DNA from: Phycisphaerales bacterium
GTDB taxonomy: Bacteria; Planctomycetota; Phycisphaerae; Sedimentisphaerales; Anaerobacaceae
Assembly (NCBI GenBank): GCA_030602885.1
Contig: JAUVYV010000021.1
Span: forward strand, 1-63,673
Direction: 5' to 3'
Length of the DNA: 63,673 bases
A program made the position numbers and the translations under genes. A model generated the notes under the pieces. The model saw nothing but the letters and a program-made list of their open reading frames with translations, was not told the DNA's origin and did no database searches. Every line of letters starts with the position of its first letter. Positions within the stretch are counted from its first letter, which is position 1. Shown one piece after another: positions 3,501 through 31,300 of the stretch.

Positions 3501-3982
3501 GGGAGGGCATTGAGGTAGTCCCAGCATTGCTGGACAGCAGTTCGGCCATTGAAGCGGTCCTTGTCCAAGTTGGCGGTTGGGCCCTTGAGTTCGATGACTG
3601 CTCGCGGGGATAATTTGGTGGTTGATGCGAACTGGCCGATAGCGGCATCTGCCTGTCCGCTATTGACTGAGAACTTTGGCTTGAGGTCCCAGCGGTCCCT
3701 ATTGTCTGAGAATAGAACATAGCCGAGAGCGTTCCCGAATACGTCGGTAAGGAATTCACCTTCGAGGGAACTTTCTTTTTCTTCCGGGAGCTTTCCGGAT
3801 GATTCGAGGTCGGCCCATTTGCAGAGGATTTCGTGGGCGTGTTCGTAGTTCTTACCTTTTAGCAGGTTGTTGCGAGAGTCGGTGCGGAGGGAATTGGGCA
3901 AAAAGAGTGGGCGCGATCGCCTGGCCTCACCGTAGCGGGCCTTATTAAATTCCGGGAAAAGATGTTCGCCCTTAGCGGGCAT
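512..3982 (-). CDS. Type IIG-like restriction enzyme / DNA methyltransferase (Eco57I family)
   Basis: A single polypeptide of 1156 residues likely to combine DNA cleavage and adenine methylation. Near residues 110-133 it has the pattern DAAI followed by ELK, typical of a PD-(D/E)xK nuclease. Motif I of N6-adenine methylases (DPACGSGAF) is near residue 485 and the catalytic NPPW motif near 608. The C-terminal third (about 800-1156) would then carry target recognition, as in Eco57I-type enzymes. No separate specificity, methylase or restriction gene is seen beside it, consistent with a self-contained type IIG enzyme. The ATG at 3982 is followed by a plausible N-terminus, and the frame is intact to the TAA at 512. 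PglX-like phage-defence methylases share these methylase motifs, but no BREX genes are present and the nuclease pattern favours type IIG. Confidence 0.85.
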   Translation of the reverse strand: MPAKGEHLFPEFNKARYGEARRSRPLFLPNSLRTDSRNNLLKGKNYEHAHEILCKWADLESSGKLPEEKESSLEGEFLTDVFGNALGYVLFSDNRDRWDLKPKFSVNSGQADAAIGQFASTTKLSPRAVIELKGPTANLDKDRFNGRTAVQQCWDYLNALPDCPWGIVSNFVSFRLYHRRQTPRVYELFTLKGLRKPEVFEQFYYLFARGGLLPDGLARTPRADALLQKCLTRERQVGDELYARYDIERKKLIMHLLSPEYNFTLDKAIRITQKLLDRIIFIAFCEDRELLPPKSLGQAWENVPPFARVTNPRWQNFLDLFRSVDEGNANRDIPPYNGGLFREDPDVDNLQLDDDWTDFFKTVGGYDFAHEVNVDVLGHLFEKSINDIEKIRLTGLFESKEDQKPRGKMRKSAERKKGGIYYTPPEFTTFIATNTVKTIADERIKSLQRNFNIDLAQIDASTEKSRVSAFAQRAVEELRDIKVVDPACGSGAFLIRAFDILDEKYEQIIDVLSIHDHKLADKLRNKVSDFILHDNLFGVDLSTEAVEIAQLSLWLHTANKEKSLADLSKNIVCGNSLISDPDVHPRALDWQKQFPDVFNRPNPGFDCVIGNPPWERFTLKNREFFDTSAPHILEAPTAAESRRLIEKLKTQNPPLYERYTKAKESAEKLMTYVRQCGRFPLTGKGDINTYAVFAELAHSIVSPTGRVGLLVPTGIATDKTNKDFFARLVNTQSLAGLYDFENKAPVFPDVHRSYKFSVLIFGGAKNKSKTADFVFFARQMDELKSESRHITLSARDFKLLNPNTQTCPIFRSRRDANITKYIYKRVPVLINNSRKQGGNPWGIKFFTMFHQSGAAELFHTAEKLKADGFKRQGPIWKKRKQTFLPLYEAKMIQMYDHRAAGVIIDESNWMRQGQTDETSIVQHQNPEFTVEPRWWVNESDVRTALGERDTTRTIAFKNVTSPTNQRTMIAAFIPYSGVVHSAPLIFISEDISTHLTACLLANLNAFAYDFVCRQKIGGVNLSYFIINQLPTFEPAFYKQKCPWDKKQTLEKWISVRVLKLTCTSNDMISFAEAAGFKPLVHKWDPAERIDLMAELDAAYFILYGIKRNDVEYILSTFQGLQKEAEDMFASHTTASRILANYDSLLAASTPTSKHKK

Positions 3983-10995: not shown

Positions 10996-11024
10996 ATAAT
11001 ACACTGAGAGACCACCCTTTGCAA
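10996..11024 (-). promoter_or_regulatory. Promoter of tRNA-Arg
   Basis: On the minus strand TTGCAA (11024-11019), a 17-base spacer and TATTAT (11001-10996), ending 15 bases before the mature tRNA 5' end. Confidence 0.65.
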
Positions 11025-11075
11025 GAAATTAGCCGCGAAACAGGCCATTCGCTCGGGGATTACAGCCAAGAAAGC

Positions 11076-11103
11076 TTGACGAGAACTTGCAGTCTGCTAA
11101 TAT
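11076..11103 (+). promoter_or_regulatory. Promoter of the aminotransferase gene
   Basis: TTGACG at 11076-11081, a 16-base spacer and TAATAT at 11098-11103, about 40 bases before the ATG at 11145. It is divergent from the tRNA-Arg promoter. Confidence 0.6.
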
Positions 11104-11144
11104 CATCGCCAGAAAATGAACGCAATCAGAGAGGTCTAAAAAAG

Positions 11145-12338
11145 ATGAAAATCAGTGAAAGAGCACAGGCGGTGCCGCCGTCGGCGACGATTGCGGTAAC
11201 GGCGCGGGCGAAAGCGCTAAAGGCACAGGGTGTTGATGTGGTGAGCTTCGGGGCCGGTGAGCCGGATTTCGATACGCCCGACTATATCAAAGAAGCGGCC
11301 ATCAAGGCGCTAAAAGCGGGCGAGACAAAATACACGGCTGCGGCAGGAATACCACAGCTCAAGAAAGCTATAGCGGAAAAGCTAAAACGTGATAACGGAC
11401 TTGACTACACTGCCGAGCAGGTAATCGTCAACATAGGGGGCAAGCATTCGGTTTATGAGGCGATGCAGGCGGTGCTCGATGCCGGCGACGAGGTGATTCT
11501 GCCCACGCCGTACTGGGTGACATACCCGGAGACGATAAAGCTGGCAGGGGCCAGGCCGAAAATCATCAAGACAAATAAGGAAAACGACTACAAGGTGGCA
11601 CCGGCCCAGCTTGAGGAGGCGCTAACCAACAAAACCGCAATGCTGGTCCTCAACTCGCCCAACAATCCCGGGGGCTTCACCTACAGTCCGGCTGAGCTCG
11701 GTGCGATTGCCGGGGTGCTTGAAGGTACAAACGTGTACGTTTTGTCCGACGAAATGTACGAAAAGCTGGTCTATGGGGACACGAAATTCGTGAGCTTCGC
11801 GTCACTCAGCGACGATGCCTACAAGAGGACGCTGACGCTCAACGGCTGCAGCAAGACCTTTGCAATGACGGGGTGGCGTATTGGTTACGCGGCGGGGCCT
11901 CTCGATGTCATAAAGGCAATGGGCCGACTGCAGTCTCACATGACATCGAACGCGGTCACTTTTATTCAACATGCTGTCATTGCCGCGCTACAAGAACCCA
12001 CAGCGGGTGAAGCAATTGAGAAGATGCGCATAGAATTTGAACGGCGTGCGAGATTTATGGCTGAACGCCTGAATGCAATCAATGGCGTCACCTGCAGCGA
12101 GGTCACCGGCGCTTTCTACTGCTTCCCGGATGTTTCGGCCTATTTCGGTCGTGAAATCGGCGGCGTCAAGATCGGCGGTAGTATGGATTTTGCAAAGGCG
12201 CTGCTGGAACAGGCGAACGTCGCCGTCGTTCCGGGTGCACCGTTCGGCTGTGACAACAACGTTCGGCTGAGCTTTGCCTGCTCGATGGAGCAGATTACCG
12301 AAGGCCTCGACAGGATTGAAAAATGGCTCAGCCGATAG
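11145..12338 (+). CDS. Class I/II aminotransferase, aspartate aminotransferase-like
   Basis: A cytoplasmic PLP enzyme of 397 residues, most like the bacterial subgroup Ib aspartate (or aspartate/prephenate) aminotransferases, which move amino groups between aspartate or glutamate and 2-oxo acids. Visible landmarks: FGAGEPDFDTP near the N-terminus, NSPNNPGG for the cofactor pocket, LSDEMYE, the PLP lysine in SKTFAMTGWRIGY near residue 236, and the carboxylate-binding Arg in the C-terminal VRLSF. The ATG at 11145 is preceded by GAGAGG, and upstream in-frame codons lack family similarity. It is first in a plus-strand series with membrane and glycosyltransferase genes. That may be chance, or it may supply an amino donor. 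Substrate cannot be fixed from sequence alone. Confidence 0.9.
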   Translation: MKISERAQAVPPSATIAVTARAKALKAQGVDVVSFGAGEPDFDTPDYIKEAAIKALKAGETKYTAAAGIPQLKKAIAEKLKRDNGLDYTAEQVIVNIGGKHSVYEAMQAVLDAGDEVILPTPYWVTYPETIKLAGARPKIIKTNKENDYKVAPAQLEEALTNKTAMLVLNSPNNPGGFTYSPAELGAIAGVLEGTNVYVLSDEMYEKLVYGDTKFVSFASLSDDAYKRTLTLNGCSKTFAMTGWRIGYAAGPLDVIKAMGRLQSHMTSNAVTFIQHAVIAALQEPTAGEAIEKMRIEFERRARFMAERLNAINGVTCSEVTGAFYCFPDVSAYFGREIGGVKIGGSMDFAKALLEQANVAVVPGAPFGCDNNVRLSFACSMEQITEGLDRIEKWLSR

Positions 12339-12432: not shown

Positions 12433-15396
12433 ATGACCGATTTGGTTCAAAACAACGAGCGTTCCGCTTTGTCGGGCTGGCCGATGATAATCGCGTGGTC
12501 GGCTATGATTCTCTTTGCGTGCCACGCGAGCACACATATGGTCGGCGCCGGGGATACGTGGGTTGCTATGGCCTGCGGCAGACACTTCATAAACCACGGC
12601 GTCGATACCATCGAGCCGTTCAGCGCAAATTCACACAAGCCGGGCCCAACCGAGGAAGAGGTCAAGACCTGGCCCAAGTGGGCGCAGTCCATTACGAAAG
12701 TGGTCGGTCTTGACACCGTTAAATACTGGCATCCGACAGGGTGGGTGAACCAGAACTGGCTTACTCATGTCATCTTCTACTATCTGACACACTTATCGCC
12801 GTTTGCCGACGCCGAAGACTGGTCGTTTAATACGTTGGTCTATTGGAAGTTTGCGATTTATATCATCACCATCATCTGCGTCTATTACACCGGTCGAATC
12901 TTAGGCGCAAATCCTGCGTTGTCGGCCGTCTTCGCCTGCTTCGCTATGTTCATCGGTCGGTCCTTTCTCGACATCCGCCCCGCCGGTTTCTCCAATGTGC
13001 TCGTCGCAGTCTTTTTGCTCATACTTGTCCTGGCAACTTACAGAAACATACTGTATATCTGGCTCATCGTCCCGGTCACCGCCTTCTGGTGCAACGTGCA
13101 CGGCGGTTACATCTACGTTTTCATTGTGATGGTGCCGTTCATCGGCCTGAACCTCGTCACTGCTCTTTCGAAAAAGTGGTTTGTCTCCATAGGTCGAAGG
13201 GGCGTATATCACGCCCTCGGCGCCGCGGCGGCCGCTTTTCTCGCCTCAATAATCTTCAATCCGTTTCATCTGACGAACCTGACGCATACGTTCATCATAA
13301 GCATCAGCAAGCACGCCGAGGGCTGGCGAAACGTGCACGAATGGTGGCCGGCCTTCGCCTGGACAAACCCCGTCGGCACCGGCTTCCCGTTCCTCGTTAT
13401 GCTCGTCCTCGCCGTGGGGCTGTTCGCCATTACACTGCTCTCACGGCTGCTCTATCCCTCTAAGCTAAAGGCGCCCAAAAGTCAGCTCGACGCACAGCAG
13501 CGTCTCTTCGAGGTCGTATCGAAAATCATCATCAGCGCCCTAGCCGTACTCGCTTGCTGGACTACACTCATTTCATTCTCCCTTGCCGATGCGGGCTTTG
13601 TAAGCATGTTCATCTGCGCCCTGTTCGTTGCCGTCCTTTGCGCCAGTGTCCTCAAGAACATGCACTTCATATACCTGATGGTCTTAGTTGCTCTCTTTGC
13701 TGTCTATACAGCAAAGGACGCAAAGGGTTTCAACGGCACATACATCTATCCCTTCGTGATAATCCCCGCCTTTGTCATAACGCACGCAATTGCTTCGTTC
13801 GTCTCCAGGAAGATCCAAACCAGACCCCGAGACATCATTTTTGTGCTCATAGCTGCCGTCGCTGCCCTGGTTTCGATGACGGAAATCTTCAACCCCTTTG
13901 GCTTCGAAAAGCCCTCGTGGTACGTTGAGCAATTCGTCGGTCTGCACAGGGTGTGGCATCCTATCTATGAGCGAAACCTCAACTTAACTTACACGCACCT
14001 CTTTACCGTCATATACGTGGTCAACCTTGCTGCAATTATCGCATGGCTTTTTGCGGCCCTGCTCAGGAGTGTGCCCGATGAGCCGGCCCGACAGCAGAGG
14101 ACTGAGCCGGTACAGCCGCAGAACCGGCAGAACCAGACAGAATCCTACAAGCTTGCAGCGATTGACCCGGCATTGATAGCGATTGCGGCACTTACGGTCT
14201 ATATGGCACTTCGTTCGAGAAGATTCATACCAATCGCCGGCATTGCGATGTGCCCGCTGCTGGCCATGCTCATCGACCAGCTGACACGCACGTTCGCCTC
14301 GGCATACAACTTCCACAAAACCGGCCGACTGACCGTACCGCAAATGCCCGGAGCACTGAGGTCATTCTTCGCAGCAGTTGCTGTTCTCATTGTCGTCGGG
14401 CTCGGATACCACTGGGGCGCCAAATTCAAGTATGTGTATCTCGACCCCTGGCCCACCGATACCAAGCTCACGTCGCCGTTCATACGAATGACGGCCTCGC
14501 ACGCAAAACCATTCTACGCCTGTCAGTTCATAAAAGAAAACAACGTATCGGGGAAAATGTTCAACTACTGGACCGAAGGCGGATTCATCGCCTGGGGACA
14601 AGGACCCGACCTCAATACCGGCAAAACTCCTCTGCAGCTCTTTATGGATGGACGTGCTCAGGCCGCTTACAACTACCGCGCATACCAGGGGTGGTCGGCA
14701 TTGATGTTCGGGGGCCAAATCGTCCGCGAGGCGACCATCAGAAAACGAAAGCTCACAGTCAAGGACTATGACAAGATCGCAAAATGGCTGGACGAAGAGC
14801 TGACAAAAGACAAGGTCTGGGTCGTGCTGATGCCTGCAAACCAGTTTAACAAGCCATTCGTCAAAGCGATCGAACACCATTCAAAATGGCAGCTCGTCTT
14901 CCTCAATGACAAGCAGAAACTCTTTATCGACCTAAGAACACCCCAGGGGAAAAAGCTTTTCGACGGAATAGCCAACGGCGAGACCATCTATCCCGACGAA
15001 TACCACAGAAAGCTTATCCTTGCTCACAACCTGTTTTTCTTTGCAACCAACGACGCAGCAAAAAGCCAAGGCGTCGAATTGGCTATCCAGGCGTTCGACA
15101 TGGTCCCCTCAAGAACCCCTCTACAGTTGATTAAGCGGTACTACGACAGGAATCCCGCCTTGAGAGCTCGCATCCTCGAGTTTTTCCAGGGCTGCTTCGA
15201 CGAGTTTATCCGGAACAGAAAACAATACAACGCCCAGCATGGCATCCACCACAGAATAATAGCGGCACTGATGGCTACGGACCATCTTCAGCCCATGGCC
15301 GCAAGAGAAAAGGACACCGAGAAAATCGATTACTATAAGCAGCTCAGAAAAGAATTATCAGACCAGCTCAAGAGCTTTCGAGATAAAAGGTGGTAA
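12433..15396 (+). CDS. Large polytopic membrane protein, GT-C glycosyltransferase-like
   Basis: 987 residues with roughly 12-14 hydrophobic helices in the first 670, then a soluble, probably extracytoplasmic tail. After the first helix comes a loop with GDTWVAMACGR..I...G....EPFS, and later GWVNQNWL. This resembles the D..W..A.G...G...PFS...W..HEWL pattern I associate with a family of GT-C-fold proteins, where the loop Asp is the catalytic candidate. The role would be transfer of a sugar from a lipid carrier on the outer face of the inner membrane. The next gene, two bases after its stop region, is a GT2 of the kind that makes such lipid-linked sugars, supporting the link. A TATACT at 12411-12416 may be its -10. 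No good ribosome site precedes the ATG. Confidence 0.6.
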   Translation: MTDLVQNNERSALSGWPMIIAWSAMILFACHASTHMVGAGDTWVAMACGRHFINHGVDTIEPFSANSHKPGPTEEEVKTWPKWAQSITKVVGLDTVKYWHPTGWVNQNWLTHVIFYYLTHLSPFADAEDWSFNTLVYWKFAIYIITIICVYYTGRILGANPALSAVFACFAMFIGRSFLDIRPAGFSNVLVAVFLLILVLATYRNILYIWLIVPVTAFWCNVHGGYIYVFIVMVPFIGLNLVTALSKKWFVSIGRRGVYHALGAAAAAFLASIIFNPFHLTNLTHTFIISISKHAEGWRNVHEWWPAFAWTNPVGTGFPFLVMLVLAVGLFAITLLSRLLYPSKLKAPKSQLDAQQRLFEVVSKIIISALAVLACWTTLISFSLADAGFVSMFICALFVAVLCASVLKNMHFIYLMVLVALFAVYTAKDAKGFNGTYIYPFVIIPAFVITHAIASFVSRKIQTRPRDIIFVLIAAVAALVSMTEIFNPFGFEKPSWYVEQFVGLHRVWHPIYERNLNLTYTHLFTVIYVVNLAAIIAWLFAALLRSVPDEPARQQRTEPVQPQNRQNQTESYKLAAIDPALIAIAALTVYMALRSRRFIPIAGIAMCPLLAMLIDQLTRTFASAYNFHKTGRLTVPQMPGALRSFFAAVAVLIVVGLGYHWGAKFKYVYLDPWPTDTKLTSPFIRMTASHAKPFYACQFIKENNVSGKMFNYWTEGGFIAWGQGPDLNTGKTPLQLFMDGRAQAAYNYRAYQGWSALMFGGQIVREATIRKRKLTVKDYDKIAKWLDEELTKDKVWVVLMPANQFNKPFVKAIEHHSKWQLVFLNDKQKLFIDLRTPQGKKLFDGIANGETIYPDEYHRKLILAHNLFFFATNDAAKSQGVELAIQAFDMVPSRTPLQLIKRYYDRNPALRARILEFFQGCFDEFIRNRKQYNAQHGIHHRIIAALMATDHLQPMAAREKDTEKIDYYKQLRKELSDQLKSFRDKRW

Positions 15397-15401
15397 CAGC
15401 C

Positions 15402-16148
15402 GTGGCAGACGAAAACTCACAACCTCAAGACCGCAACGGCGCCCAAAATCGCAACGTTTCCATCACCGTCTTTTTCCCCTGTTACAACGAGCAGGAGAAC
15501 GTCGAACGCACGACCAAAAGCGCCCTTGAAGTCCTCAATGACCTTAACGCCGACTTCGAGATTATCATCGTCGATGACGGGAGCTCCGATGCCACCGCCC
15601 AAATCGCCGACCGGCTTGCCGACGATAATCCCTGCGTCAGAGTGATTCACCATGCGACGAATCTCGGATACGGTGCAGCGCTGCAGTCGGGCTTCAAAGC
15701 CGCAAAAAAACAGCTCGTCTTCTACACGGACGGCGACGGGCAGTTCGACATCAAAGAGCTGCCCCCTCTTATCGGGCTTATCGAGGACTGCGACATCGTC
15801 AGCTGCTATCGACTGAATCGTCAGGACCCGATGATGCGAAAAATCAACGGCTGGCTCTGGACGAAACTGGTATGCACTCTCTTTCGTATGAAGACCAGAG
15901 ATATCGACTGCGCGTTCAAGCTGTACAGGCGTGAAATCTTCGATAACATAATAATGTCCAGTAAAGGCGCGCTGATCGACACTGAGATCCTCGCTCGCGC
16001 CACGCGAAAGGGGTACAGGGTAGCTCAAAGGGGCGTTCACCATTACCCAAGAAAGGCAGGCGAACAAACCGGTGCGAAGCTCGGCGTAATATTCCGCGCG
16101 TTTGGAGAGCTTCTTAAACTCTACAATCGCATTCGCGCCGGCGATTGA
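15402..16148 (+). CDS. Family 2 glycosyltransferase (dolichol-phosphate mannose synthase-like)
   Basis: A 248-residue GT-A enzyme that probably loads a sugar from a nucleotide donor onto polyprenyl phosphate at the cytoplasmic membrane face. Seen: VFFPCYNEQENVE at the start of the fold, IVDDGSSDAT for nucleotide binding, YTDGDGQFD as the metal-binding DxD region, and a C-terminal amphipathic stretch but no membrane helix, as in soluble DPM1-type enzymes. I choose the GTG at 15402, with AAAGGTGG about 8 bases upstream. An earlier GTG at 15390 would overlap the previous stop (15394-15396). The tight spacing suggests translation coupled to the GT-C-like gene, so the pair could provide and use a lipid-linked sugar. 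Confidence 0.85.
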   Translation: MADENSQPQDRNGAQNRNVSITVFFPCYNEQENVERTTKSALEVLNDLNADFEIIIVDDGSSDATAQIADRLADDNPCVRVIHHATNLGYGAALQSGFKAAKKQLVFYTDGDGQFDIKELPPLIGLIEDCDIVSCYRLNRQDPMMRKINGWLWTKLVCTLFRMKTRDIDCAFKLYRREIFDNIIMSSKGALIDTEILARATRKGYRVAQRGVHHYPRKAGEQTGAKLGVIFRAFGELLKLYNRIRAGD

Positions 16149-16466: not shown

Positions 16467-18389
16467 ATGAGTGAGAATAGAGTCAGTTTGTTCATCTACG
16501 GTTCTCTGCGTGATGCGAAGATTTTCCAGTCCGTATGTGGTCTGAGCTTTACGAAAAAACGGGCTAAGGTTGACGAGCAGACGCTCCTTGCTGAAGCGGC
16601 CCTGCTGCCGGGCTATCGAAAAATAAGCCCCGACAAGGTTTATTTCTACGCCTTTCCCCTGCCTTCTTCAAAGATAGAAGGCTACGTCGTCCACAACGTT
16701 CCTGATTCGGCCATGGCTGAAATCGACAGATACGAAGGAAAAAGATACGAGCGTGAAACCGTCCGAGTCAACACGGCAACGGGCCCGGTCGAAACACAGG
16801 CATATCTTACAACCCACGAGTCTATGAAAAAGCAGTTCGGCGACAGATTCCACGTAAACCTTATACACGAACTGTGGCTGCGCAAACGTATCGAAAAGTT
16901 TTTTAAGAAACGTACGAGACCCGGCGACAAGACATTCGACGCGGAACTCGAGCGACGCGCCGACAGAGAGCTTCTTGGCACGACCGAACGTGACCTGGTG
17001 ATGAGCCATTACGGAAGTGACGCCGTCAGCGATTACTACCTTCAGCATGAGCTTGACCGGCCTCGACCGAGCATAAAATACCTGTACGGCGACCATCTCG
17101 CCGAACGATATATCGAAAACTACGTCTCACTGGTAATAAGGCAGGTCCTGCTCAATCAGCTCGACGAACAAATTCAGAACCGATATCGCTTTGAGCTTGA
17201 GCACATGCAGACGTCCGAGAGGTATTTCAAGCGGTCTGTCAGTCTGCTCGCGTCCATGGAGATCATAAACGAAAATGCCCCGACCGTTGAATTGATTGTA
17301 CGAAAGGGCATGCAGACAATGCCCCACGAAACACACGACCTCATCGATTACGTCAAGTACGCCGTCCGTGCCGCAAGGAATTTCTTCGACCCGCGTATCG
17401 TGGAGGACCACCTGGACCATATCCGGTCAAACCTTCACCCGGGCCTCGTACCACTCGGCTGTGAAATCGAGCTGAGCAACCTCGGCGCCGCCGCCGTCCG
17501 GCCTGAGTCGGTTGTTCCGGAGAAGACAGATCCCGTCTATGACGGCTTCAGGTACTTCCATGACTTCCAGCTCGACGTTCTATCGTGGAAACTCGGCGGC
17601 TACATAGACGACCACTCCGGCTCTATCAGCAACGAACGACGCACCGGTTTCCTTGAACTTGCGCCAGGGAGACTCAACATCTCCGGCGAGCTGTCCAGGT
17701 CCGCTACCGCCGACCCCTGGCTGCTGAACCGGCTCATACAGGAAGTCACCGCCTTCTATGACGTTAAGCCGCACAGTCTGCATCTGTCATTTCAGTTGAG
17801 GAGAAATCAAAGAGGCAAACAAAAGGTCCTTCCTCTCGGTTTTGTCAAATGCCTGCTCGCTCTCGGCGGTGGCCCGGAGCTGAAGGTAACCGGCGTAAGG
17901 GTCTCACGCCTCGGTCACCACGAAATCATAAGAGATGAATATGGCGAAGAGCTCGTCTTTGCCCGTACAAACGAACGAAGATGGTATCTGGGCCGCGACG
18001 AAATTGCCGACAAAGCACCAGCTCAGGCAACTGCTTGCGTCCAGCAATATAAATTCATTCGTCTCGACAGGCGGGCCAGCTACGAGCCGTTAATAATGTG
18101 TCTTAAAGGTCTCCAGCTCGGCTACAACCCGGGCGACTATCTGACTGCCGCACAGCTTAGAGCCAGCAAAAAGTTCAGCGAGGACTATGACCAGTTGAAG
18201 AGATGGGCCGATGACCCAACCAAAATCAGCCCACAGAGAATCAGCAGATTCTTAAGTGTCGTGCGCTATGGCCTGCTGAATGAGGGATACCACCGCCCCG
18301 TACACACCTTGCATTATATCGATTGGGCGCTAAGCGCGGTCAATGTTCAACTGCGAATGTTCAACGAGCAGCTCAAGGAAGAATCCTGA
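16467..18389 (+). CDS. Fusion of gamma-glutamylcyclotransferase-like and amidoligase-like domains
   Basis: 640 residues in one frame. Residues about 6-115 are an AIG2/GGCT domain: FIYGSLRD replaces the usual F.YGTLR substrate loop, and AEIDRYEGKRYER matches the D..EG..Y.R signature. A long helical linker (about 120-335) follows. Residues about 345-480 resemble the GCS/amidoligase fold: LGCEIEL near the start, then DDHSGSI...GFLELAPG, then HSLHLSFQL, in the order of G.E.E, D.S...E..P and H.H in Amidoligase_2 proteins. A helical tail closes it. Known GGCT enzymes cyclise gamma-glutamyl amines to release 5-oxoproline, and amidoligases form amide bonds with ATP. A fusion could make and trim a gamma-glutamyl-type adduct. 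Neighbouring GT2, WaaP-like and GT9 genes suggest an envelope substrate. The first domain call is firm, the second is an inference. Confidence 0.65.
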   Translation: MSENRVSLFIYGSLRDAKIFQSVCGLSFTKKRAKVDEQTLLAEAALLPGYRKISPDKVYFYAFPLPSSKIEGYVVHNVPDSAMAEIDRYEGKRYERETVRVNTATGPVETQAYLTTHESMKKQFGDRFHVNLIHELWLRKRIEKFFKKRTRPGDKTFDAELERRADRELLGTTERDLVMSHYGSDAVSDYYLQHELDRPRPSIKYLYGDHLAERYIENYVSLVIRQVLLNQLDEQIQNRYRFELEHMQTSERYFKRSVSLLASMEIINENAPTVELIVRKGMQTMPHETHDLIDYVKYAVRAARNFFDPRIVEDHLDHIRSNLHPGLVPLGCEIELSNLGAAAVRPESVVPEKTDPVYDGFRYFHDFQLDVLSWKLGGYIDDHSGSISNERRTGFLELAPGRLNISGELSRSATADPWLLNRLIQEVTAFYDVKPHSLHLSFQLRRNQRGKQKVLPLGFVKCLLALGGGPELKVTGVRVSRLGHHEIIRDEYGEELVFARTNERRWYLGRDEIADKAPAQATACVQQYKFIRLDRRASYEPLIMCLKGLQLGYNPGDYLTAAQLRASKKFSEDYDQLKRWADDPTKISPQRISRFLSVVRYGLLNEGYHRPVHTLHYIDWALSAVNVQLRMFNEQLKEES

Positions 18390-18486: not shown

Positions 18487-19389
18487 ATGGATTGTGAGCG
18501 GCTAAAAAGGTCTGCGAATGTTGAGACCGCACGGCTGAAACTTCTGCGTGGATGGAAGGCCACGGTGGTGCTCTCAGGTTTGTCGGACACGACTTTCTCC
18601 GCCGATGAGTGGGGCAACTGCCTGGCCAGACCCGAATCCATAGCCGAAGACTATGAGCAAATCCTAAAACAACAGGACCAAAACCTCGTCGTCGTCAAAT
18701 TCCTGACTCTTGCCGGCCGAGACATTAAGGTCGTAATAAAGCGCCACTATCCAAATCTCACGCTCCGTTCCTTTTTCCGCTCATTTCGTCCCGGCAGGGC
18801 GCTGCGCAACTTCAACACCGCTGTTGAGCTGCTCCGCTGCGCCGTCCCCGTCGCAATACCACTCGCAGCCATCGAGCAAAAGCGATTCGGCCGCTCGATT
18901 CAAAGTATTTACGTCACTGAATATATCGAAAACGGCGACCACCTTCACCACTTCCTCGCTCAGCTCCCTGCCGCTGTCTCCACAGAAGCGTTCAAGCTCA
19001 AAAAACAACTCTGCGTCCGCATCGCACAAGTCCTCGCCGCACTCCACCGGGCCGGCTATTGGCACCGCGACGCAAAGGCAACCAATTTCATCGTCTCCAA
19101 AGATGCTTTCGGACGGTACCGTCTGCTGATGACGGATATGGACGGAATAAAACCGTATCGTTTTCGAAAAAGGTACCGTCAACTGCGAGCATTTTGGCAC
19201 CTCGCCGCCTCACTCATGAACCTGCACAATGTCACTCGAACAGACTGCCTGCGGACCTTCACGGCTTACTGTAAGCTTCTCTGCATCAGTGCTCGGCAAA
19301 GGCGCGACCTCTTTCGCCGGATTGCAGCAGAAGCCGACGCCAAGTACGCACGCTCGCTGCGAAATTCTGCTGCACAAAAACAGAGATGA
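18487..19389 (+). CDS. Lipopolysaccharide kinase (Kdo/WaaP family)-like protein
   Basis: 300 residues with a small-molecule/lipid kinase fold related to WaaP and KdkA, which phosphorylate heptose or Kdo in the LPS core at the inner membrane. Visible: VVVKFL...VVIKRHY as the ATP-lysine region, ALHRAGYWHRDAKATNFIV as the catalytic loop (HRD.K..N pattern), and LLMTDMDGIKPYRF as the metal-binding DFD/DMD segment. Many basic residues in the C-terminal half fit a membrane-surface enzyme. It overlaps the next gene (GT9) by 4 bases, so the two are translationally coupled and probably act on the same core oligosaccharide. The N-terminal 60 residues are less conserved. Confidence 0.8.
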   Translation: MDCERLKRSANVETARLKLLRGWKATVVLSGLSDTTFSADEWGNCLARPESIAEDYEQILKQQDQNLVVVKFLTLAGRDIKVVIKRHYPNLTLRSFFRSFRPGRALRNFNTAVELLRCAVPVAIPLAAIEQKRFGRSIQSIYVTEYIENGDHLHHFLAQLPAAVSTEAFKLKKQLCVRIAQVLAALHRAGYWHRDAKATNFIVSKDAFGRYRLLMTDMDGIKPYRFRKRYRQLRAFWHLAASLMNLHNVTRTDCLRTFTAYCKLLCISARQRRDLFRRIAAEADAKYARSLRNSAAQKQR

Positions 19390-20447
19390 CCGAAGAATTG
19401 AAAAACTTGCTTGTTATCAAGCCAAGCGCCCTCGGGGACATCGTGCTCGCCCTGCCCACTCTGGCCGCCCTGCGAACCAGCCTGCCGAGCGCAAAAATCT
19501 CCTGGCTCGTCCGCACCGAATTCGCTGCTCTTCTCGAAAACCATCCTCACCTCGACGAAATTATCCTGTTCGACCGTAAACTCTTAGGCCGTGCCTGGCG
19601 CGACCCAAAGGCATTTAGTGCCTTATCCACGCTCATCCGCCGGCTTCGCGACAGCCGTTTTGACGCCGTGTTCGACCTCCAAGGACTTTTCAGGACCGCC
19701 TGCCTCGCCTGGCTCTCGCGCTGCCCAAAGCGCTTCGGCATGGCAGAGGCCAGAGAGTTCGGCCATCTCTTCTACAACCACAAAGTTGCGCAGGACGCCG
19801 CCTGCATCCACCTCGTCGATTACTATCTCAAAATCGCCGAAGCTGCCGGCGTTTCTAAAACCGATGTCCAATTCGTTTTCCCGGAAGATGCCTCCGCCGC
19901 CGAGTCGGTTGAAAACCTCCTCCGAGAACACAATATCCCCATCGACAACTACGTCGTTCTTGTCCCCGGCTCGGCCCGGGAAAATAAACGCTGGCCGGTC
20001 GAGCGCTTCGCCTGTCTCGCCGACAATATCGCCTCGAATTTTGCGTGCTCAATCGTCATCGTCGGCTCATGCTCTGAAAAAGGACTTGCAGAAAGACTAA
20101 AAGCCCTCACCAAGACGGCAGTTACAAATCTCGCCAGCCGAACCTCCATTGCCGATCTTGTACCTCTGCTGAAATCCGCCCGGCTTGTAGTCGGCAACGA
20201 TACGGGGCCGGGCCATATCGCCGCCGCACTCGGCGTCCCCATAGTCCTGATTTTCGGCCCAACAAACCCGTCGAGAGTTGCTCCTTACGGCAGGGGCCAA
20301 TGCGTCGTCGCTATCGACCCTTTCACCAGGGGCCTAAAGCCCGACAGTTGCGACCCAAAACACAACATCAAGAATATCACCGTTGATATGGTCTTCGAAA
20401 AGGTCGCTTCCCAGCTCAAAGGTGGCAGTGCAGCAGCCCATCACTGA
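19386..20447 (+). CDS. Family 9 glycosyltransferase (heptosyltransferase-like)
   Basis: 353 residues with the GT-B layout of WaaC/WaaF/WaaQ heptosyltransferases, which extend the inner core of LPS from ADP-heptose at the cytoplasmic face. Seen: LLVIKPSALGDIVLALPTLAALR at the N-terminus with the conserved D after the first strand, VLVPGSARENKRWPVERFA at the start of the second half, and VGNDTGPGHIAAALGVPIVLIFGPT, the ADP-binding signature with the conserved D-T-G-P-H. The ATG at 19386 overlaps the WaaP-like stop. At its 3' end it collides tail-to-tail with ileS, overlapping by 7 bases. Which sugar it transfers cannot be told. Confidence 0.88.
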   Translation: MTEELKNLLVIKPSALGDIVLALPTLAALRTSLPSAKISWLVRTEFAALLENHPHLDEIILFDRKLLGRAWRDPKAFSALSTLIRRLRDSRFDAVFDLQGLFRTACLAWLSRCPKRFGMAEAREFGHLFYNHKVAQDAACIHLVDYYLKIAEAAGVSKTDVQFVFPEDASAAESVENLLREHNIPIDNYVVLVPGSARENKRWPVERFACLADNIASNFACSIVIVGSCSEKGLAERLKALTKTAVTNLASRTSIADLVPLLKSARLVVGNDTGPGHIAAALGVPIVLIFGPTNPSRVAPYGRGQCVVAIDPFTRGLKPDSCDPKHNIKNITVDMVFEKVASQLKGGSAAAHH

Positions 20448-23844: not shown

Positions 23845-23916
23845 TTGAAGCGCACAGTTATGTGGTTCAATCTTGAAACAAAGTATTTTCTAAATTATTG
23901 TGGGAGGAAAAGAACA

Positions 23917-26900
23917 ATGTGGAAGAAACTCATATCTTTATCCGGCGTGCTGGTGCTCATCATTGGTTTGTCGGTCTCTGCCGCGCCATATCCCGGCCGA
24001 ATGGGTGTCGAGGCACCCGGCGATGTCTTCGTTGACATTGCCAGAGAAGGCTACAGATGGGCAAAGCCCGATGGGGCCGGCGGCTGGACCGATCTGACCG
24101 GCGCCGACGTCGACGCCGACGGCTGGCTTATGACCGATGCACAATGGGTAATTGATTACCGCCCTGTGGCCGAATGGGCAGGGGAAATCGATGACCCCGA
24201 AGAATACCGCGTTGACAGAAGCGGAACGTACAAATGTTCATTCATCGGCCAGGCGACACTTTCTCACGTCGAAGGTTCATGGACTATCCAAAACCAGTCC
24301 TACAACTCCGGTACAAACACCACAACATTTGATCTTGTAATGGACCCGCCGGGCCCGCACCACGGGATTATAGTTATGCACTTCACCGACACAAAGAGGA
24401 CGCCCGCCAGCCCGACCGGCAGCGGCTTCACCAACTTCAGATGCATTCGTCCCGGCTACCCCGCAGACACAACTCAGCTTTTCAGAGATGACATCATCAG
24501 CACACTCACCAGCGCCGACTTTGCCGCTGTCAGATTCATGGGTGTCGCTATGACAAACGGCAACGTCGAGTGGGATGAATTCGGGCCAATCACTCAGTCC
24601 TGGTCAAACCGAAAAAAGACCACGGATGCCTCTTGGGGAAGCACCATGGGCACCCTCAACAAAAAGGATGGCTGGCCCTGGGAGTATATGATTCAGCTCT
24701 GCAACACCGTCAATATGGACCTCTATATCTGTATTCCTGTCGCTGCAGACGACAACTACATCACACAGCTCGCCCAGCTCGTCCACAGCAATCTAAACAG
24801 CGGTCTCAACGTTTATCTCGAGCACAGCAACGAGATGTGGAACTGGGGTTTCATACAGTACGCCTGGAACAAGGCTGCTGCGGTCGAAGAAGTCAACGCA
24901 GGAGGCTCCAATCTCAATTACGACGGCTCGACCAATGAGGAGGTATGGGCTCAGCGCCGACATGCGCGAAGAGTAAAGCAAATCGTCGATATCTTCGCCT
25001 CTGTCTTTGGAAGCGGCGAAATTAACAATCGAATTCGTGGTGTTCTGGCAGGCGTGAGCGGAGACTTCTTCACCGTTGGCAGATTTGACCAAATGCTCGA
25101 CTTCCTAAACGCTCAGTATGGCGCGCCGAGCAACTACATCTACTGCACCTCATCACCGCTCTACTACGGCGGCACCGCCGCCTCAGGTGGCGAGGGTACC
25201 GAAACCTACACCGTCCAGCAGATACTCGATGCAATGAGTGACGCCACCGACGGCCAGGTCACAGGACGGCAGGGAGAAATCAACCTTGCAAGCTCATGGT
25301 CCTTGCCTGGTGGATTCTGCTCCTACGAGGGCGGACCTGATACCGGCGGAGGCAGCACCACAAACATCGGTAACAGAATCATGGCCGTTAGAAACTCCCA
25401 GCAGGCCGACATCTACAAGCGAAACTTCGCCAACAACTATTGGGACCTCGGCGGCGGACTGGCCATGCAGTTCACTCTGCAGGGCGCATACACCCGCTAT
25501 GGCTGCTGGGGACTCACCGACGACCTCAGTAACCCCGACCGAAATTACCTCTTCCAGGCCGTCAGGGACCTCATCGGCTCAGGCGGTGGACCAACCCTGC
25601 CCGGTGTGGCGACAGGGCCAAACCCGGTAAATGGCGCAACCGGCGTCAGTGTTAACGCAGACCTGTCCTGGACAGCCGGCTCCGGCGCCGATTCACACGA
25701 TGTCTATTTCGGCCAATCAAGTCCCGGCACATTCCAGGGCAACCAGGCCGGAACAACCTATGATCCCGGCACAATGGCCAACGATACGACGTACTACTGG
25801 CGCATCGACGAAAAGAACGCTGTCGGAACTACTACAGGCACCGTCTGGAGCTTTACAACAGAATCCGCCGGCGGCGGACTGCCCAGTCCATGGGTAAACG
25901 GCGACGTCGGAAGCCCGTCTCAGGCGGGAACAGCTTCCGAATCTTCGGGCACGTTCACTATCGAAGGCGGCGGAGCCGACATCTGGGGAACATACGATTC
26001 GTTCCACTATGTCTATCAGTCGCTCTCAGGTGACGGTGAAATCTCGGCAAGAGTTGCAAGCGTCGAGAACACCGACTCCTGGGCAAAGGCCGGCGTGATG
26101 GTTCGAGAGTCGCTCACCGGCGGTTCAACGCATGCTATGATGGTAATCACCGCAGGCAACGGCGCCGCCTTCCAGAGGCGAACCACCACCGACGGCTCCA
26201 GCTCTCACACAGCAGGCAGCAGCGTTACCGCCCCGTACTGGGTACGCTTAGTCCGCAGCGGCGACACGCTCACCGGCTACGAATCGAGCGACGGCGGCGC
26301 CTGGAACCAGGTCGGCTCCGCTACCGTCGCGATGGCGACCGATGTCTATATCGGTCTGGCCGTCACCGCCCACAACGACGGAACACTCTGCACCACGGAT
26401 ATCAGCAATGTCGCCGTGACAGGCGGCGGACCTCAGCCTCCCGATGCGCCGACAAATCTCATAGCGACACCGGGTGACGGGCAGGTGGCTCTGAACTGGA
26501 CGGGTTCTGCCGGAGCTACTGAATATAACATCTATCGCGGCACAGGAGGCAACTACTATCTCCACGCTGAGACTGCCAACACATACTATACCGATACGAG
26601 CGTAACCAACGGCGTGACGTATTATTATTACGTCACCGCGGAAAACGCCGCCGGTGAAAGCAGCGCGTCAAACGGTGTGACGGCAACTCCGCAGGCCGCT
26701 CCACAGCCGCCCGGACAGGCGAGCAATCCCAGTCCGGCCAATGGTGCTACCAGCGTCAATGTCGATGCCGACCTTGGCTGGACAGCCGGTTCTGATGCTA
26801 CCAGCCACGATGTGTATTTCGGACAGTCAAGTCCCGGCACATTCCAGGGTAATCAGGCCGGCACTACCTTTGACCCCGGCACACTCGCCAACAGCACGAC

Positions 26901-28104
26901 ATACTACTGGCGAATTGATTCGGTCAATGCGGTAGGCACAACCACCGGCAACGTCTGGAGTTTTACAACCGCAGCATCAGCCGGCGGTCCGGTGGGATAC
27001 ACCTGGTGCGCCAGCGAAGGGCAAACAGTAGTTTTCTCCGAGACAGTGGATGTGGCTTATGGAGCAGACGGCTACTTCAACTACATGTACGGAGTCACCG
27101 GCAGCATAACCTTCGACAACGCCACCTTCGGCGACCCCATTCCCGGCACGGTGAAAGACGGGTACTACAAGGTCGTGGGCGGCGGTGGAAACGGTACGGG
27201 TCTTACCGGCGACTATTATGACAACATGGACTTCACCGGTTTCGCTCTGACAAGGGTCGATGCTACCGTCAACTTCAACTGGGGCAGCGGTGCACCCGAT
27301 GCTTCTATGGGCGCCGACTCATTCAGTGTCCAATGGACGGGTCAAGTCGAGCCTTTGTATTCCGAGAATTACACCTTCTATACTAACTCCGACGACGGAG
27401 TACGGCTCTGGGTCAATGGCCAATCACTCATCGACAACTGGACAGACCATGGACCTACTGAAGACTCCGGGATCATCGGCCTCACAGCGGGTACCAAGTA
27501 CGACATCAGTATGGACTTCTATGAGAACGGCGGCGGTGCGGTAGCTGAGCTGCGATGGTCAAGCCCGTCGCAGGCCAAAGAAGTCATCCCGCAAACTCAG
27601 CTTTACGAAGCCGAAGGCGGCGGTACAGGAACCATCCTCCGCGAGTGGTGGACCGAAATAGGCGGAAACGCTATCTCAGACCTCACATCCAGCCCCGACT
27701 ACCCGGACAACCCCACCGGCAGCGATGAACCGACGTCATTCGAGGCCCCGACCGACTGGGCCGACAACTACGGCACGAGGATCAGCGGCTATCTGCACCC
27801 GACCGACAGCGGAGACTACACCTTCTGGATTGCCTCCGACGACAACGGCGAACTCTGGCTCAGCACCAATGACAACCCTGCAAATGCATCTCTGATTGCC
27901 AATGTCCCCGGCTGGAGCAGCTCACGTCAGTGGGATAAATACGCCGAGCAGCAGTCCGGTTCAATTTCGCTTACCGGCGGTAATGTCTATTACATCGAAG
28001 CCCTCCAGAAGGAAGGCGGCGGCGGCGACAACTTAGCAGTCGCATGGCAGGGTCCGGGTATCTCTCAGCAGGTCATACCCGGTGATTATCTCTCGCCCAA
28101 CTGA
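23917..28104 (+). CDS. Giant secreted GH-A-like putative glycosidase with Fn3, DUF1349-like and PA14 modules
   Basis: 1395 residues from the ATG at 23917 (GGGAGG 10 bases upstream); a TTG at 23845 would add 24 residues. Residues 1-24 are a signal peptide. Residues about 25-560 look like a catalytic domain of the (beta/alpha)8 clan: EHSNEMWNW puts a likely acid/base Glu at 306 after Asn, and CSYEGGPD a candidate nucleophile Glu at 471. I do not recognise the family number. Then follow an Fn3-like module (about 561-650), a DUF1349/concanavalin-like domain (655-830), a true Fn3 (840-925), a second copy of the Fn3-like module (926-1020), a small unknown module starting GYTWCASEG (1025-1090), a PA14 domain (1094-1235) and a PA14-like domain (1240-1395). 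It probably acts on polysaccharide outside the cell. No dockerin or sorting signal. Confidence 0.75.
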   Translation: MWKKLISLSGVLVLIIGLSVSAAPYPGRMGVEAPGDVFVDIAREGYRWAKPDGAGGWTDLTGADVDADGWLMTDAQWVIDYRPVAEWAGEIDDPEEYRVDRSGTYKCSFIGQATLSHVEGSWTIQNQSYNSGTNTTTFDLVMDPPGPHHGIIVMHFTDTKRTPASPTGSGFTNFRCIRPGYPADTTQLFRDDIISTLTSADFAAVRFMGVAMTNGNVEWDEFGPITQSWSNRKKTTDASWGSTMGTLNKKDGWPWEYMIQLCNTVNMDLYICIPVAADDNYITQLAQLVHSNLNSGLNVYLEHSNEMWNWGFIQYAWNKAAAVEEVNAGGSNLNYDGSTNEEVWAQRRHARRVKQIVDIFASVFGSGEINNRIRGVLAGVSGDFFTVGRFDQMLDFLNAQYGAPSNYIYCTSSPLYYGGTAASGGEGTETYTVQQILDAMSDATDGQVTGRQGEINLASSWSLPGGFCSYEGGPDTGGGSTTNIGNRIMAVRNSQQADIYKRNFANNYWDLGGGLAMQFTLQGAYTRYGCWGLTDDLSNPDRNYLFQAVRDLIGSGGGPTLPGVATGPNPVNGATGVSVNADLSWTAGSGADSHDVYFGQSSPGTFQGNQAGTTYDPGTMANDTTYYWRIDEKNAVGTTTGTVWSFTTESAGGGLPSPWVNGDVGSPSQAGTASESSGTFTIEGGGADIWGTYDSFHYVYQSLSGDGEISARVASVENTDSWAKAGVMVRESLTGGSTHAMMVITAGNGAAFQRRTTTDGSSSHTAGSSVTAPYWVRLVRSGDTLTGYESSDGGAWNQVGSATVAMATDVYIGLAVTAHNDGTLCTTDISNVAVTGGGPQPPDAPTNLIATPGDGQVALNWTGSAGATEYNIYRGTGGNYYLHAETANTYYTDTSVTNGVTYYYYVTAENAAGESSASNGVTATPQAAPQPPGQASNPSPANGATSVNVDADLGWTAGSDATSHDVYFGQSSPGTFQGNQAGTTFDPGTLANSTTYYWRIDSVNAVGTTTGNVWSFTTAASAGGPVGYTWCASEGQTVVFSETVDVAYGADGYFNYMYGVTGSITFDNATFGDPIPGTVKDGYYKVVGGGGNGTGLTGDYYDNMDFTGFALTRVDATVNFNWGSGAPDASMGADSFSVQWTGQVEPLYSENYTFYTNSDDGVRLWVNGQSLIDNWTDHGPTEDSGIIGLTAGTKYDISMDFYENGGGAVAELRWSSPSQAKEVIPQTQLYEAEGGGTGTILREWWTEIGGNAISDLTSSPDYPDNPTGSDEPTSFEAPTDWADNYGTRISGYLHPTDSGDYTFWIASDDNGELWLSTNDNPANASLIANVPGWSSSRQWDKYAEQQSGSISLTGGNVYYIEALQKEGGGGDNLAVAWQGPGISQQVIPGDYLSPN

Positions 28105-28131
28105 TTTTTAGTTGTGTGTATGAACGGTTCG

Positions 28132-28158
28132 AGCCCGCGGGTCTTTCGCCCGTGGGCT
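28132..28158 (+). terminator. Hairpin after the first giant gene
   Basis: AGCCCGCGGG and CCCGTGGGCT pair over ten base pairs (one G-T) around the loop TCTTTCG. There is no T tract after it, so it may be a weak terminator, an mRNA-stabilising hairpin, or a divider between the two giant genes. Confidence 0.45.
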
Positions 28159-28238
28159 TGAGCCGGCATAGGTGCAAACTGTCGCACCGTGCCCATGTGA
28201 AAAGAACCAACCAGCCAGAACATCCGGCTCTGTTCGAG

Positions 28239-28274
28239 AAAGGAGGTGAGAAACCAGAAATGGAGAAATGGTAG
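28239..28274 (+). promoter_or_regulatory. Perfect Shine-Dalgarno with a mini-ORF in the second leader
   Basis: AAAGGAGGTGA at 28239-28249, the same 11 bases as before the first giant gene. 13 bases after its GGAGG an ATG at 28260 opens ATG-GAG-AAA-TGG-TAG (MEKW). The real start of the giant protein is about 80 bases further, with its own weaker AGGGG. Confidence 0.4.
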
Positions 28275-28340
28275 AAAGCTCGTTTCCAACATTATGTATG
28301 CTTAACAAGTTAACAGAGGGAATTTTCAGGGGAACATCTC

Positions 28341-31300
28341 ATGTGTAAAAGATGGAAACATTTTAGTTTTTTGGCTGTTGCTGCGATTTTGTTGAGCACT
28401 TTCATTCCGGGTTTTGTCTTCGCGGCGACTATTACCGTCGATGAGTCAACTCAATATCAGACGATTGACGGCTTCGGTGCTTTCGGCCTCAGGAATGTCA
28501 ACTGGGCTAATCCTTCGGAATGGTGGAACGATTCTTTCGGTGACCTGATCATCTCAGATCTTGGTTTGACTATCCACAGGAATGAATACTATCCGCCGGA
28601 GGGCGACCAGGATACTCAGTTTTCGGCTCAGGCGCCGTATTATCAGTTGCTGCGAGACAAGGCGATTCAACACGGCGAACCGCTGAAGATCGTCATAACG
28701 TATTGGACGCCGCCCTCGTATATGAAGGACAACGGCAGCCCCGATGGCGGCAGTCTTTTGCCCGAGTATTATGATGACTTGGGCAACTATACGGTTGATG
28801 CCCGTGACGACTTTGCAGGTATCGGGGTTGATGTTTATGCGTGGAGTCTGCAGAACGAACCGCTGTTTCCCGAGCCCTATAACTCCTGTGTTTACACGGC
28901 GGAACAATACAGGGACATGTTCAAGATAGCTGCGCCTATCATTCACAATTCTTATCCCGACCTGAAGCTGTTCGGCGATGAGCATATGCTCTGGGGCATA
29001 ACCAGAGACTGGGACTGGGCAAACACTTCTGCTATAAGAAAGGTTAAAGACGATTCGCTGGCCAATTCGCACATGGGTATCTGGGCTGTTCACGGTTACA
29101 GTGACGGTATAAGCCCGGATCCGGCATCGCAGGCGGAGTGGGTCCTGGCCAGGCAGCGTCTGGACATCGACAATACGGGCAGGCATTTCTGGATGACTGA
29201 GACGAGCGGCTTCAGCACCGACTGGAGTGGCGCGTGGACTTTGGGAACGCAGATATTCTCCGGATTGAAGTATGGCCACCTCTCTGCCTGGGTATTCTGG
29301 CAACTGAGCAACGATACTGGCGGTGAGTATGCGCTTATGCAGTTAGGCAATCCCACAAAGCGTTACTATGTCTCAAAACAGTTCTACAGATACATTCGAC
29401 CGGATGCCGTCATGGTCGAGGCCGACACCGACCAGTCCGGTGTCTATGCCGCGGCATTCACACATTCTGCAAATCAGACACTGACAATTGTGCTTATCAA
29501 CGATTCGGGCTCGCAGAGGACGCTCGACATCAGCATCGGCGGTTCTATTATTCCGGACAACTTCGACGTTTACAGAACCACCTCGGGTGAGAACTGTGTG
29601 AATGCCGGCACCATCTCCAGCTCCGGGCCGGTTACCGTGCCTAACAGCAGTATAACGACACTCTACGGCGTGGGTGGTGCACCACAGCCGCCGGGGCAGG
29701 CAAGTAATCCGAGTCCAGCCAACGGCGCAACCGATATTAGTGTCGAAGCCGATATAAGCTGGACGGCAGGCTCGGGAGCCGATTCACATGATGTGTATTT
29801 CGGCCAGGATTCAACTCCCGATTCCGGTGAGTTCCAGGGCAACCAGACCGGAACTACATTCGATCCGGGAACTCTGGCTGCCAGTACTACTTACTACTGG
29901 CGTATCGATTCGGTCAATACCGCCGGTACTACCACAGGTAGCGTCTGGAGCTTCACGACCGAAGCTGCGCCTCAGCCTCCGGGCCAGGCGAGTAATCCTT
30001 CTCCTGCCGATGGCGCAACCGGTGTCAATACGACAGTAACTCTCAGCTGGTCTGCAGGCAGCGGTGCTATCAGCCACGATGTCTATTTCGGCACAGATCC
30101 AACACCCGACTCCGGCGAGTTCCAGGGCAACCAGACTGGCACGACCTTTGACCCCGGTACACTGGCCAATGATACTACATATTACTGGCGAATTGACGAA
30201 AAGAACGCTGTCGGCACAACCACAGGTGTTGTCTGGAGCTTTACGACCAGACCCGGAGCCGGCTCAGGAACCGGCCTGCAGGGCGACTACTATGATAACA
30301 TCGATTTCACAGCGTTTGTGTTGAGCAGAGTTGACCCTACTGTCAACTTTAACTGGGGCAGCGGCTCACCTGACCCATCAATTGGCGCAGATACGTTCTC
30401 TGTAAGATGGACGGGTTTCGTCGAGCCACTCTACTCAGAGACCTATACCTTCTACACAAACTCTGACGATGGCGTCCGTCTCTGGGTCGATGGCCAACTG
30501 GTCGTTGAGAACTGGACGGACCATGCACCGACCGAGAACAGCGGAACCATCGCCCTTACCGCCGGCACTCAGTATGACATCCAGATGGACTACTACGAGA
30601 ACGGCGGCGGCGCGGTTGCCGAACTGCGCTGGTCAAGTGCAAACCAGACCAAAGAGATAATCCCGCAGACCCAGCTCTATGAGCCAACTGCACCACCGCC
30701 GCCTGGTCAGGCAACGAATCCGAGTCCTGCCGATGCGGCGACGGGTGTGGACATAAATGCAGACCTGAGCTGGACGGCTGGTTCCGGTGCGGATTCTCAC
30801 GATGTGTACTTCGGCACGACCAGCCCCGGCACGTTCCAGGGCAACCAGACTTCCACGACCTTTGACCCCGGCACGATGGCTAATGATACGATCTATTACT
30901 GGCGTATCGACGAGAAGAATGCCGGCGGCACGACCACCGGTGTTGTCTGGAGCTTCACGACCGAATCTGTACTGCCACCCGGCCAGGCAACCAATCCGAG
31001 CCCGGCTGACGGTGCAACGGATGTAAGCACAACCGCAGACCTTAGCTGGACCGCAGGCTCCGGTGCAACAAGCCACGACGTGTACTTCGGCACGAGCAGT
31101 CCCGGCACGTTCCAGGGCAACCAGGGCGGCACTACATTTGATCCGGGTACACTGGCCTACAGCACTACGTACTACTGGAGAATCGACGAGGTCGGTGCCG
31201 GCGGCACGACCACCGGCAGCGTCTGGAGCTTCACCACCGAATCCGAACCCGGCGCAGCTATAGAGTTCGATTCGGTCGGCTCGAACTCCAACGGTACGAA

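Follow-up and report, generated by a model that had tools for sequence, protein, structure and literature searches.

A gamma-glutamyl cyclotransferase obligately fused to an uncharacterised conserved domain in the Phycisphaerae

Amidoligases and gamma-glutamyl cyclotransferases have been described as pairs encoded side by side by two distinct genes, in phages among others. In phage LUZ24 the genes for a COOH-NH2 ligase, an amidoligase, a RimK-like ligase and a cyclotransferase lie together, and in phage PV036459 a putative amidoligase gene, annotated as hypothetical, is followed by a gamma-glutamyl cyclotransferase gene (positions 571-2079). A similar phage cluster with separate neighbouring amidoligase and cyclotransferase genes has been reported (PMC3890496). 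Such neighbouring phage genes therefore provide a precedent for pairing an amidoligase with a cyclotransferase. Enzymes of the GGCT fold have in common a YGSL motif and a catalytic glutamate, and form 5-oxoproline (PMC7022552). Here we describe an open reading frame of 640 amino acids (16467..18389, + strand) in a window of 63,673 nucleotides, the whole stretch of DNA analysed from a Phycisphaerales bacterium, in which a cyclotransferase domain is obligately fused to a probably helical middle region and an uncharacterised C-terminal domain.

The N-terminal domain (residues 8-117; 16488..16817, +) is matched by the curated GGACT model PF06094 with 45.2 bits against a cut-off of 22.8 (E=1.7e-11), and the same Pfam model matches 31 of 31 aligned homologues. 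The fusion gene is single-copy in its own genome, where it is also the sole PF06094 match. A profile of the family reaches the solved AIG2-like structures 2g0q (E 1.8e-6) and 2jqv (E 3.8e-6). The initial annotation had pointed to GGCT signatures in FIYGSLRD (residues 9-16) and IDRYEGKRYER (86-96), and both proved to be real. The first contains the YGSL loop (residues 11-14), in which Y11 and G12 are invariant among homologues, position 13 is Ser or Thr and L14 is near-invariant in the family alignment; the second contains E90, which is invariant in all alignment rows and aligns to the EG..YER segment of 2g0q. These matches firmly support assignment of the N-terminal domain to the GGACT/AIG2 type of GGCT-fold cyclotransferases. 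Since its YGSL loop and catalytic-type glutamate are both intact, the domain is expected to act on a gamma-glutamyl amide and release 5-oxoproline. The cyclotransferase half is by itself ordinary.

Both ends of the protein are present in 87 of 90 distinct homologous open reading frames, and the three exceptions, which have the C-terminus only, come from fragmented assemblies. The fusion is therefore obligate rather than occasional. A homologue was detected in 68 of the 99 near relatives sampled and in 73 of 298 genomes from the class; in one distant family of the class 26 of 35 genomes have one. One of the 73 is false: the match in genome G228 (E 1.2e-5) was rejected because a long MnmG-like frame covers that stretch on the opposite strand. 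Two of the loci are from named Phycisphaerales MAGs, and the class is therefore Phycisphaerae. Sequence identity is approximately 70% within the family and drops to 33-42% when other families of the class are compared. In a phylum-wide sample of 392 genomes matches were confined to the same order, a profile HMM of the C-terminal domain run against 294 genomes of the phylum gave only E values of at least 0.2 outside the order, and no relatives were found in IMG/VR or in phage or plasmid collections. Among the genomes searched the protein is found only in the Phycisphaerae and, as far as the searched databases and literature show, obligate fusion of a cyclotransferase to a family of approximately 500 residues that has no Pfam model, within a single planctomycete class, is new.

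Three regions follow the cyclotransferase domain. The middle region (residues 141-325; 16887..17441, +) belongs to no known family and is probably helical, as judged from low-confidence helices in an AlphaFold model; nine of its positions are at least 97% conserved, R175, D176, Y219, R241 and S259 among them. The C1 block (residues 326-445; 17442..17801, +) is a putative active site, with the conserved motifs GxExE (331-335), W374-K375, D381-D382-H383, E397-LAPG and P435-H436...H439. The C2 block (residues 446-640; 17802..18386, +) is a second conserved block that includes R481, E486, R504, R532, K547-G548, Q550, Q563, W580 and H613, and within it QQYKF-x-R532-L and then Y539-E540 are also conserved. 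The C-terminal motifs named in the initial annotation, LGCEIEL (330-336), DDHSGSI...GFLELAPG (381-401) and HLSFQL (439-444), are present and are not chance resemblances, their key residues being at least 97% conserved: this applies to G331, E333, E335, W374, D381, H383, E397, G401, H436 and H439 in 79 homologues outside one distant family, f15. In all, 57 positions in residues 326-640 reach this level. When residues 141-640 were compared by HMM and by profile with Pfam, NCBIfam, PHROGs, PADLOC and PDB, nothing beyond chance was returned; isolated matches to Thoc2, to Biopterin_H/Trp_5_monoox (in one member), to a CBX7 tag and to a putative Ser/Thr kinase were dismissed as noise. It is thus shown that the C-terminal 500 residues form a family restricted to the class and without known relatives. 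Its most polar cluster of conserved residues is in 326-445, and the C-terminal domain is conserved, family-specific and probably catalytic.

In the mechanism that we put forward, the protein would be a cytosolic enzyme acting in the metabolism of gamma-glutamyl amides, its two activities permanently joined in one chain. The C1 cluster would form the metal/nucleotide site of a very divergent carboxylate-amine ligase of the glutamine-synthetase/GCS-like (GS/GCS-like) type, and the C-terminal domain would, at the expense of ATP, form an amide, gamma-glutamyl or similar, on a glutamate-type carboxylate. By analogy with separate phage gene clusters such as that of LUZ24, the N-terminal domain would then trim or quality-control this amide, releasing 5-oxoproline. 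That a GS/GCS-like ligase makes a gamma-glutamyl-type amide and the attached cyclotransferase removes it is a tentative proposal, which we consider plausible but more doubtful than probable. The fuller statement, that the protein is a single-chain make-and-trim enzyme combining an undescribed, very divergent GS/GCS-like ligase family confined to the Phycisphaerae with its own cyclotransferase and acting on a gamma-glutamyl acceptor, is less likely again, and on balance unlikely. We place the ligase mechanism first, despite giving a higher probability to a C-terminal domain of non-ligase fold, because it is the sole specific mechanism with positive evidence.

This evidence comprises the cyclotransferase match, the obligate fusion, the phage precedent for the pairing, the pattern of losses in family f15 (below), and the conserved motifs and their order. 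In the Amidoligase_2 alignment A3 the motifs run GxExE, W-K-x3-D-x-S, E-x-V-S-P, G-x-H-x-H, RY-x2-IN and E-x-R, and those of the C-terminal domain follow the same order (GxExE, WK..DDH, E-LAPG, HSxH and later QQYKF-R and Y-E), so that the earlier claim of motifs in the order and spacing of the GCS/amidoligase fold stands for order, while the spacing is close without being identical. The GxExE first strand of Amidoligase_2 is present as G331-x-E333-x-E335, conserved outside f15, and W374-K375, E397-L-A-[PL]-G and H439 follow in sequence. Four features of Amidoligase_2 are missing or shifted, namely the W+5 aspartate, the serine, the second histidine of HxH and the late E-x-R: the aspartate of the C-terminal domain is at W+7, the second histidine is Ser441, and there is no equivalent serine and no E-x-R.

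Profile comparison gave a different result for the proposal that residues 330-500 form an amidoligase domain, for which no significant HMM, profile-profile or structural evidence was found. An HHalign query with an 81-sequence profile of the C-terminal domain gave a probability of 1.7-3.7% with the 51-sequence profile of Amidoligase_2 (PF12224), the best alignment being out of register, and 0.3% with GCS2 (PF04107), 0.5% with COOH-NH2_lig (PF14395) and 0.1% with Pup_ligase (PF03136); 27 unrelated neighbour families used as decoys scored in the same range. The search for an amidoligase-fold match by sequence profile thus ended at 4% or below, against positive controls of 95.4% (GCS2 with Amidoligase_2) and 95.7% (GCS2 with COOH-NH2_lig), and the pipeline is therefore able to see relationships at the distance of those controls. 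However, HHalign also misses accepted GS-like relatives (Pup_ligase with Amidoligase_2, 0.5%; Amidoligase_2 with COOH-NH2_lig, 2.8%), and the negative result therefore bounds the ligase claim rather than refuting it. In 31 members there was no Pfam match to Amidoligase_2 at E values up to 5, and homologues did not match GCS2 or COOH-NH2_lig. The bacterium's own genome gave no match to GCS2, Pup_ligase or Amidoligase_2, which we count in favour of the ligase mechanism. Unfiltered HMM scoring of the C-terminal domain was within the decoy range; the sole recurrent weak HMM alignments, to Amidoligase_2 and GCS2, covered the GxExE strand and were in register, which also favours it. AlphaFold models had a mean pLDDT of 36.7 for the whole protein (4 alignment rows) and 37.9 for the C-terminal domain (3 rows). 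By profile, the C-terminal domain does not appear to be a member of Amidoligase_2, GCS2, COOH-NH2_lig or Pup_ligase; it may be a distant amide-making ligase.

The reading to which we give the highest probability, while putting it at somewhat under an even chance, is that the C-terminal domain has a different, undescribed fold and is not an ATP-dependent ligase. It could be, for instance, a hydrolase, a module that binds metal or nucleotide, or a domain for substrate recognition, and the protein as a whole would do no more than degrade or sense gamma-glutamyl compounds, by means of its cyclotransferase. The lack of a library match for this domain, and of a profile relation to any GS-like family tested while two positive controls worked, argue for such a fold. 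Family f15, represented by loci L079 and L081 from two genomes of two genera, argues in the same direction. In f15 the C1 block has lost 16 of 30 residues that are otherwise at least 97% conserved, compared with 7 of 59 outside C1 (Fisher p 6e-5); D381, H383, E397 and H439 are all lost, and the acids of ExE are kept as Glu or Asp. In f15, 22 of 23 conserved residues remain in the cyclotransferase domain and 24 of 27 in the C2 block. The pattern is as expected if a single catalytic site had been abandoned while the rest of the protein kept a role, and in this respect it also favours the ligase mechanism; the loss, seen in two related sequences, is probably one event. With the protein, its cyclotransferase and C2 retained, ligase-type chemistry would be dispensable in this family. 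Against a non-ligase fold, both the set and the order of the conserved acidic and histidine motifs resemble those of GS-like ligases, and the profile test on which the fold argument draws misses true distant relatives, as the values of 0.5% and 2.8% above illustrate.

The gene lies in the window between a GT2 gene and a WaaP-like kinase/GT9 pair, as first described, and this position raises the alternative of an enzyme that attaches an amide-linked group to an outer-membrane sugar and trims it, the sugar being made by the products of these and adjoining genes. Within the same order, represented by 22 loci, the upstream genes are highly constant. A class I/II aminotransferase (11019..12338, +; Aminotran_1_2 2.2e-79), the first gene of the conserved block, is present in 20 loci. 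A 987-residue membrane protein with approximately 16 hydrophobic segments (12433..15396, +) is present in 21; it had no Pfam match in four members tested, representing an unmodelled family, and we infer that it is likely a GT-C-type transferase. The most constant neighbour is a GT2 glycosyltransferase of the polyprenyl-phosphate-sugar synthase type (15390..16148, +; PF00535 4.9e-32; best NCBIfam match PRK10714, partial and below cut-off), which is directly or nearly directly upstream of the fusion gene in all 22. The GT9 heptosyltransferase-like glycosyltransferase (19386..20447, +; PF01075 7.6e-46), downstream when present, and the small Kdo/WaaP-type kinase (18487..19389, +; PF06293 3.9e-12) are occasional neighbours, in 10 and 3 loci respectively. 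The description as an envelope gene cluster is only partly right: within the order GT2 is a conserved neighbour, GT9 and WaaP are not, and in 19 loci from three other families of the class none of these genes was near the homologue and no common partner replaced them. In addition, GT2 is separated from the fusion gene by a gap of 318 bp in the window and by an alanine racemase gene in one family of the order, and the constancy of the upstream genes may reflect nothing more than synteny. Support for an envelope role is weak, and a glycan-decorating enzyme is improbable. For the amide-forming mechanism itself, a glycan acceptor is only one possibility and not the preferred one, since beyond a single order the gene has no glycan genes beside it.

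Other genes of the window encode a type IIG restriction enzyme-methyltransferase of 1156 residues with an Eco57I/MmeI-type methylase domain (512-3982, -; PADLOC REase_MTase_IIG 4.5e-77), and two adjoining very large proteins of 1419 and 1897 residues with PA14, GLEYA, DUF1349 and malectin domains (23845-34034, +), which are apparently surface glycan-binding proteins. A 496-residue protein (34322-35812, +) has a glutamine amidotransferase domain over its first 40% only (GATase_7 4.3e-13).

Least probable of all is an ordinary GGACT enzyme with a lineage-specific stabilising or localising extension and no second catalytic site, which would agree with GGACT being the sole recognisable domain but not with the 57 highly conserved positions in residues 326-640, more than a passive extension would be expected to hold, at 33-42% identity across families.

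If the make-and-trim mechanism is true, this always-fused cellular form would allow amide formation and removal to be tested in one protein. The homologues of f15, with a degraded C-terminal site and an intact cyclotransferase, would be useful controls as natural inactive variants. The C-terminal domain in turn contributes a new sequence family of approximately 500 residues, with no Pfam model, to be placed among ligase folds.

Pup ligase and Dop follow the logic of a GS-like ligase/hydrolase pair. Members of this family (PF03136) are present in the phylum, but they show no profile similarity to the C-terminal domain (0.1%), and their G-x-E-T-E-Y signature is absent from it. GCS2, which shares a superfamily with Amidoligase_2 and COOH-NH2_lig according to the HHalign controls (95-96%), shows a weak in-register GxExE alignment with the C-terminal domain, but the profile probabilities for GCS2 and COOH-NH2_lig are 0.3-0.5%. 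Amidoligase_2 and the phage clusters share with this locus the idea of the pairing, the GxExE strand and the order of the W/D, E..P and H motifs; they differ in that profile homology is not detectable (at most 4%), that the phage genes are separate where here they are fused, and that no RimK or GATase gene is adjacent here. Residues 8-117 belong by HMM to the GGACT/AIG2-like cyclotransferases (PF06094), with the YGSL loop and catalytic-type glutamate kept. Unlike these enzymes, which are usually small stand-alone proteins, the cyclotransferase described here is always the first fifth of a 640-residue protein.
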